DNA from: Bacteroidales bacterium
GTDB lineage: Bacteria > Bacteroidota > Bacteroidia > Bacteroidales > VadinHA17
Assembly: GCA_003141895.1 (NCBI GenBank)
Contig: PLNT01000014.1
Span: 62,001 to 126,000 of the forward strand
DNA: 64,000 bases
Direction of reading: 5' to 3'
Notes under the pieces: model-generated
Seen by the model: the letters and a program-made list of their open reading frames with translations, nothing else
What the model was told of the DNA's origin: nothing
The model's database searches: none
Translations under genes and position numbers: made by a program
In this document: piece after piece, positions 54,237 through 59,506 of the stretch
How the letters are laid out: the number at the start of each line of letters is the position of its first letter
Numbering within the stretch: position 1 is the stretch's first letter

Positions 54237-54394
54237 ATTGGAGATTCCTCATTTCGCGATGCTCCATTCGGAATGACAAATCAATTAGGTCATAAAAATA
54301 GAGAAGGAGAGGTGATTCGCAGAGCTAATCACCTCTCCTTCTCTATAATCCATTCAAAACCTGTCATTCCGAGCGTCAGCGAGGAATCTCCAAT
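54237..54394. repeat. Nested inverted-repeat element, copy A
   Basis: Outer arms ATTGGAGATTCCTC (54237-54250) and GAGGAATCTCCAAT (54381-54394) match exactly over 14 bp, and CGGAATGACA (54269-54278) pairs with TGTCATTCCG (54362-54371). The inner hairpin is a 20-bp stem (54298-54317 with 54327-54346) whose tip reads GATTc-GC-aga-GC-tAATC. The gap is convergent between the TlpA-like and response-regulator genes. The same architecture occurs at 59360-59506. Confidence 0.85.
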
Positions 54395-59254: not shown

Positions 59255-59290
59255 AATATTCATACGAAGTTTTTCATTCCTTTGTGACGA

Positions 59291-59325
59291 GGGAACCAGA
59301 GAAAGGGCTGGTTCCCTTTTTTTTT
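59291..59325 (+). terminator. Rho-independent terminator of the secreted coiled-coil gene
   Basis: GGGAACCAG (59291-59299), AGAAAGGG loop, CTGGTTCCC (59308-59316), then nine Ts. It ends transcription 37 bases after the stop. Confidence 0.85.
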
Positions 59326-59359: not shown

Positions 59360-59506
59360 GGAGATCCCTCACTTCGTTCGGGATGACATTTGGTTTTGCA
59401 TGGGAGAGAGAATGAGGAAGGGTTGGCGATTTGCTGAGCAAATCGCCAACCCTTCCTATATTATTACCCTCATGAATTGTCATCCCGAACGAAGTGAGGG
59501 ATCTCC
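59360..59506. repeat. Nested inverted-repeat element, copy B
   Basis: The outer arms, 59360-59388 and 59478-59506, are perfect 29-bp complements beginning GGAGATCCCTCACTTCG and ending GGGATGACA. Inside, a perfect 20-bp hairpin (59415-59434 with 59438-59457) has the tip GATTT-GC-tga-GC-AAATC. It lies between the convergent coiled-coil gene and the gene at 59526. Compare 54237-54394, which has the same design and related ends. Confidence 0.9.

Follow-up and report, generated by a model that had tools for sequence, protein, structure and literature searches.

Nested REP-like palindromes in a Bacteroidales genome may be mobile repeats, and their matched arm changes need not mean a conserved RNA

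Do matched base changes on the two arms of a hairpin mean that the folded structure is conserved? Two elements, A and B, raise this question in a stretch of 64,000 nucleotides (the window), which is part of one contig of a draft Bacteroidales genome (4.01 Mb, 46 contigs). The initial annotation proposed that A and B have a common design, that their inner hairpins differ by four compensatory pairs, that these pairs argue for a conserved fold, and that both elements lie in convergent intergenic gaps. We argue that the matched changes are real and that the step from them to a conserved fold is not needed.

A family of nested palindromes

Direct reading of both copies confirms the common outer ends and inner hairpin. 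The parts are as follows.

54240-54391, copy A, whole (direct sequence reading)
54240..54278, + strand, left outer REP-like half of A, beginning GGAGAT, with a TGTC tag at its inner side, read on the - strand; its letters are GGAGATTCCTC...CGGAATGACA
54298..54320, + strand, left arm of the inner hairpin of A, purine-rich
54321..54323, no strand, inner loop of A, 3 nt in the register of alignment A1 (below)
54324..54346, + strand, right arm of the inner hairpin of A
54362..54391, - strand, right outer REP-like half of A, TGTCATTCC...GAGGAATCTCC
59289..59325, + strand, terminator-like hairpin with a 9-T tail, adjoining copy B and outside the element
59360-59506, copy B, whole (direct sequence reading)
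59360..59388, + strand, left outer REP-like half of B
59415..59434, + strand, left arm of the inner hairpin of B
59435..59437, no strand, inner loop of B, TGA
59438..59457, + strand, right arm of the inner hairpin of B (arms perfect)
59478..59506, - strand, right outer REP-like half of B

The inner arms of A have one C:T mismatch, two pairs below the loop. The four differences between A and B are Watson-Crick pairs altered at matching positions of the two arms (A-T to G-C, G-C to T-A, A-T to T-A and T-A to C-G). Both copies fold well beyond chance, at -74.8 kcal/mol for A and -102.6 kcal/mol for B (z -11.06 and -14.89), and none of 200 shuffles of either was as good. ORF positions put A and B themselves each in a convergent gap; B was set as convergent by the ORF list, the gene caller having missed the adjoining 161-aa gene. 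Hairpins of similar build to the one at 59289..59325 stand at the same place in several relatives (by eye).

A and B are two of at least 41 copies, so the observation is real and larger than first reported. The initial annotation named a lack of further copies as something that would count against it, and further copies exist. The REP end pattern has 30 exact matches in the source genome against 0 for a reversed control pattern. Between facing REP ends 33 stretches were extracted, two without an inner hairpin of this kind and one with a truncated hairpin. With a covariance model built on just the inner hairpin, at least 36 distinct places are found, a lower bound because 150 of 1389 first-look candidates were scored. 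REP sequence stands on both sides of 35 of these 36 (at most 2 mismatches), the exception being C23:340390. Among the fetched stretches 41 inner hairpins have REP sequence alongside, and both outer ends were found for 39 of them (at most 3 mismatches). A copy near C23:231205 is not included in the counts of 36, 41 and 39.

Each element consists of two facing TGTC-tagged REP-like palindromes, with an inner hairpin between them and a spacer on either side of it. The pattern of the outer halves is GGAGATYCYTC ... GGRATGACA, or the reverse complement of this; several subtypes exist, and the two halves within one element often differ in subtype. The inner hairpin mostly has 15-27 pairs and a purine-rich left arm. 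One class of hairpin has a short loop and the tip GGCGATTTGC, the other a loop of about 23-36 nt and the tip GGCGATTC. Seven of the 41 copies (C8:51366, C26:311867, C26:374769, C36:41784, C39:15630, C41:26610 and C46:13742) have NN at the hairpin tip and arms of exactly 22 bp; the NN is probably an assembly artefact at a palindrome. Three copies (C13:179541, C32:66146 and C1:77876) have a common flank, where the unit starts beside a longer REP-like sequence (CATTCGGAATTGTA...), and this suggests insertion into another REP.

The family is found across a genus. With 142 candidates scored per genome, the hairpin model has matches in 15 of 24 relatives from the genus and in 0 of 16 genomes of other families in the order. 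Of 393 genomes from the order, 3 contain the exact tip pattern: the source genome, one congener and one other with a single place. A search of GTDB genomes, in which records near the source genome may be absent, gave 5 stretches with the exact inner core, from unrelated organisms. A DUF4369-thioredoxin protein points to Bacteroidota as the probable host group.

Matched changes in the inner stem

Alignment A1 holds 20 short-loop hairpins over 22 pairs, or 439 cells; from the 33 stretches it omits 3 that are non-standard, 5 with N at the tip and 5 with a longer loop. Paired cells make up 96.6% of the 439. Both sides have changed at 14 of the 22 pairs. Double changes account for 69 cells and one-side changes, all of them G-U, for 5; 15 cells are unpaired. 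The covariation score is 0.449, compared with 0.174 in shuffles and at most 0.169 in slid controls. Of the five covariation measures, four lie above every one of the 500 shuffles. The exception is further pair types, which shows no excess (24 vs 22.9, a value that 157 of the 500 shuffles reach), and this is counted against our preferred reading. The covariation seen between A and B is strong in the larger alignment too and grows with the added copies, and base-pair covariation of the kind sought in structured RNAs is present in the inner hairpin. A search of 5.8 kb against Rfam gave 7 matches at E up to 1, none of them at the gathering score.

Where do the matched changes lie? Within an element the two stem arms have an identity of 0.990, compared with 0.407 between elements (32 elements, those 7 of the 39 that contain N being excluded), a contrast that is partly by construction since the arms were found via complementarity and compared from their outer ends. 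No excess of likeness within elements is found in the REP halves (0.658 within, 0.677 between), the spacers (0.332 and 0.335) or the outer flanks (0.332 and 0.328). The matched arm changes are limited to the inner stem.

Compensatory change is commonly held to go via G-U states. Template switching has been proposed as an alternative, and its footprints are described as multiple compensatory changes and inverted loops (PMC8794818). The rarity of G-U in A1 has been given above, and it is on those counts that the argument rests. In a pool of 78 hairpins taken from the source genome and from relatives, 1536 pairs are Watson-Crick, 3 are G-U and 7 are mismatched; this count is biased because the finder penalises G-U and a few repeats of the same element are included.

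Inverted loops are also found. In the relative G011, units that are otherwise alike have the loop CA or TG (L231 and L232 against L234 and L239). The copy on C37 of the source genome has a 31-nt loop that is inverted relative to L087 and L090, with the outer parts in the same orientation. L225 and L238 are 95% identical over 282 bp; in their 20-bp stem one pair is changed on both arms, and just outside the stem, where one copy has an A-T pair, its partner has G-T. Among 249 comparable pairs the loop is direct in 84, flipped in 82 and ambiguous in 83, which is weak evidence as the loops are mostly 2-4 nt and some elements were entered twice. For loops of at least 20 nt, 16 of 21 comparisons are direct and 5 flipped, and few independent events are involved. 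Both the long-loop ratio and the weakness of the 2-4 nt loops count against template switching. L230 (G011:C11) has, at 1433-2165, three nested elements in a row at a spacing of 344-345 bp, and their loops are ctaa, ctaa and ttag.

The covariation is in the stem only, G-U is rare and the loop is inverted between some related copies; therefore covariation alone is no proof of a selected RNA. The proposal that compensatory pairs reveal a conserved fold survives as far as the covariation goes. The conserved fold is not a required step, since 69 double-change against 5 G-U cells, covariation in the stem only and loop inversions all fit template switching; selection on the fold may still play a part. 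The inner arms probably stay matched since DNA copying corrects one arm from the other, in which case no conserved RNA has to be invoked.

Insertion sites, unit ends and a candidate enzyme

Are the elements mobile? For the site of A, 29 relatives were fetched and 24 judged. All 24 lack the nested pair of REPs and its hairpin; in L166 one half alone has a match. A convergent response-regulator gene is downstream in 14 of the 15 relatives inspected closely. For the site of B the element is in none of the 24 relatives examined (29 fetched), within 700 nt, and L178 has a single half match.

Near-identical copies in G011 (20 regions fetched) mark out a unit. The unit is about 300 bp long with ends that are inverted repeats (CTACCCTTTATACACAT...), and 4 of 5 near-identical copies have a 9-10 bp duplication. 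The terminal inverted repeat (TIR) reads CTACCCTTTATACACA, and its 14-base pattern is present in 26 of 58 genomes of the genus, counting the source genome. A scan of 70 loci, run without a shuffled control, gave 26 TIR-bounded cases, two of which overlap. A duplication of 9-12 bp is present in 15 of the 26 (in 5 with a single mismatch) and absent from the other 11, and REP sequence lies inside 18. When the flanks are joined, 18 of 30 cases have a palindrome of at least 6 pairs within 52 bases, many spanning the junction; this count too was made without a shuffled control. A second type of unit in G011 (L225 and L238) is about 280 bp long, with ends TGAGTATC and the same core.

In the source genome this TIR lies within 400 bp of 5 of the 39 elements, on one side or both. 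The C36 copy has a full left TIR, a partial right TIR and an 11-bp exact duplication, and the C46 copy an 11-bp duplication with one mismatch. Flank inverted repeats score above the best of 12 shuffles for three of the 39, C13_179600, C46 and C36 (the last by one). A joint scan for TIR and duplication in flanks of up to 180 nt picks out C36 and, weakly, C3 of the 39, and none of 39 shuffled controls is among the ten highest scores. A and B have no TIR within 400 bp, and no duplication was seen in the flank scans, so the route by which they entered has to be argued from the shared core. If MITEs are recognised by TIRs, a duplication and no coding sequence, then C36 (its right TIR partial), C46 and the units in relatives qualify; A and B fall short. 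A further copy, L293 (C23:231092-231606), lies outside the 41; it is a TIR-bounded unit of 515 bp with no duplication, 3 mismatches in the right TIR and N at the hairpin tip.

It is worth considering which enzyme could move such units. A Y1 gene lies between two TIRs in four relatives (G006, G008, G042 and G047). The G006 unit (L274, which is also L299) is 927 bp long with a 22-bp TIR and a 9-bp exact duplication, and encodes a Y1_Tnp protein of 150 aa (49 bits, cut-off 23). The G047 unit (L276) is 795 bp long and its Y1_Tnp protein scores 71.1 bits. The duplication is thus exact in G006; it is 9 bp with one mismatch in G042, and G008 and G047 have none. One-sided TIRs are found at the Y1 loci of G017, G044, G015 and G064. 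The Y1 gene was located in 20 of 30 loci, and 7 of these 20 have a TIR on one or both sides. A separate crude search around 20 Y1 loci for TIR plus duplication, centred on the middle of the locus, found nothing. Y1_Tnp has no match in the source genome at E 0.001. Unit L276 and the REP-containing L288 on C46 of the source genome have a common TIR and the same subterminal stem-loop, 69/66 bp from the ends in L276 and 67/69 bp in L288. Because the TIR and the stem-loop spacing match, L288 looks like a derivative in which a REP pair and hairpin have replaced the gene. In G071 the TIR-bounded unit of 784 bp at L258 1501-2284 has an 11-bp exact duplication, no Y1 gene and an ORF of 131 aa, which we take to be DUF559-like. 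Since L258 carries a different ORF, the genes enclosed by TIRs may be passengers.

Members of IS200/IS605 are described as having neither TIRs nor larger duplications (PMC2817692), and the Y1 unit L274 does not fit that description. The located Y1 proteins have the motif Y..NQ..HH or one near it, which resembles subclass 1.2 of PMC6006769. That subclass is reported there to come mostly from Cyanobacteria and Bacteroidetes and, as a rule, to lack the end structures typical of IS200. The Y1/HUH transposase that lies between the same TIRs is a candidate mobiliser of the nested repeats. It is rather doubtful that a small Y1/HUH transposase moves TIR-bounded DNA, makes 9-12 bp duplications at the apex of palindromes and carries the nested REP-hairpins as non-autonomous passengers. 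If it were true, this would be Y1/HUH transposition unlike that of known IS200/IS605, and CGTC-like REPs would gain the transposase they are said to be missing.

Competing readings and known repeats

We lean, by a modest balance of probability, towards A and B being non-autonomous nested fold-back mobile repeats whose stem is kept by template switching. Two facing REP-like palindromes would enclose a long inner hairpin, and this core would ride in a unit with CTACCCTTTATACACA ends that inserts between genes, frequently close to a palindrome's centre, and is then flanked by duplications of 9-12 bp. On DNA in single-stranded form a polymerase could switch template across the hairpin and copy one arm from the other. 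Such copying would give paired Watson-Crick changes and flipped loops, and would hold the stem near-perfect. We infer that A and B moved in the same way although they have no such ends, and that the stem is maintained by template switching and not by selection. Several facts count against this reading: the few TIRs in the source genome and their absence at A and B, the lack of a Y1_Tnp match there, the different ORF in L258, the 11 of 26 TIR-bounded cases and two of the four Y1 units without a duplication, and the published account of IS200/IS605 as lacking TIRs. If the preferred reading is right there is a warning in it, as the copying of DNA can produce covariation in a repeated hairpin that has no function as RNA. 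The reading would also give a testable dispersal route for TGTC/CGTC-like REPs, which have been described as without a transposase. The link would run from the nested REP core to units that leave target duplications and have ends which elsewhere flank a Y1/HUH gene.

No description of the nested design turned up in searches of open-licence papers, and no paper came up there for nested palindromic MITEs in Bacteroidetes or for quasipalindromes with template switching. A REPIN or BIME is a dispersed, non-autonomous doublet of two inverted REPs able to form one large hairpin. The elements here are likewise dispersed, non-autonomous inverted REP pairs, but their halves are often of different subtype and complementarity is kept in the enclosed inner stem. 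The CGTC-tagged REP superfamily (Di Nocera et al. 2013, PMC3733652) is akin too. As described there it has a TGTC variant, is intergenic, commonly forms dimers, and has spacers with stem-loops. The paper also describes REPs inside longer palindromes as well as TIRtrons; CGTC repeats are said to have no association with transposase genes, and the main text has no word beginning with duplicat-. The outer halves here carry the TGTC variant of the tag and then AT stem ends (TGTCAT..CC / GG..ATCTCC). CGTC REPs are given as an 8-9 bp stem, a 4-5 nt loop and a 3-nt tail that is mostly CCA (PMC3733652), whereas the stem here is 5 pairs plus an imperfect part, the loop is longer and the tail is CTCC. 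The tags here face inward (TT type), which that paper reports as rare for CGTC, and within the spacer there is a long hairpin whose sequence varies. Because of the tail, the imperfect stem and the longer loop we file the elements as CGTC-like and not as CGTC members.

TIRtrons and TIRYTs (Di Nocera 2013; subclasses in PMC6006769) also have a Y1/HUH gene between TIRs and repeats that occur gene-free. That arrangement is found here in G006, G008, G042 and G047 and not in the source genome. The motif GGGGWSAS, common to part of the published set of TIRs, is not in the TIR here. The Y1 proteins here differ as well in having the subclass 1.2 motif Y---Q--HH, and 9-12 bp duplications are present. 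The hairpins attributed to template switching by Monttinen and Loytynoja (2022, PMC8794818) are like ours in their multiple compensatory changes and loop inversion; those described there are in RNA genes, whereas ours belong to a dispersed DNA repeat family.

One can imagine that the inner hairpin is a functional RNA (a stabiliser of mRNA 3' ends, a processing site or a small RNA) which is under selection for pairing and sits on a mobile repeat. Covariation and pairing are strong, the predicted folds are very stable and the purine-rich 5' arm recurs in relatives. In addition 33 of 42 copies are in convergent or tandem gaps, and are therefore downstream of a gene. However, a selected RNA does not account well for 5 G-U cells against 69 double changes or for the inverted loops, 9 of the 42 copies are in divergent gaps, and the symmetry of the design gives neither strand preference. 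We consider this reading unlikely. It is still less probable that the palindromes are protein-binding or topological DNA sites with a selected cruciform, as proposed for other REPs. Dyad symmetry and the recurrence of a related tip (GGCGATTTGC here, GGCGATTCGC in G011) are what such sites would lead one to expect, but the positions of A and B, the two that were tested, are not shared with relatives, the stem and tip sequences vary, and we know of no binding partner.

That leaves the elements as bidirectional intrinsic terminators between genes, which we also think very improbable. The stem is long, with a purine-rich left and a pyrimidine-rich right arm on both strands, A and B are both in convergent gaps, and the inner hairpin of B scored as terminator-like on both strands. 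Convergent placement fails as a general rule: the 42 elements are in 12 convergent, 21 tandem and 9 divergent gaps. Other gaps nearby number 16 convergent, 107 tandem and 19 divergent, and those of at least 150 bp number 7, 18 and 15. By these counts convergent gaps are favoured over all gaps and not clearly over long gaps. No run of 4 T is found within 10 nt of 31 of 39 stems on either strand, and the 8 stems with such a run have it on one strand only; an intrinsic terminator has a T-run directly after its stem. A terminator role is thus weak as a general explanation, with 12 of 42 elements convergent and 8 of 39 stems with a short T-run. Copy A is absent from the terminator-like sites found in the region, of which there are 6 against 4.2 (sd 2.2) in shuffles, and a conventional terminator-like hairpin with 9 T already adjoins B. 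Elsewhere in the window a loopless perfect palindrome (837-868, arms of 16 bp) lies in the convergent gap that separates two genes whose ends are at 828 and 893.
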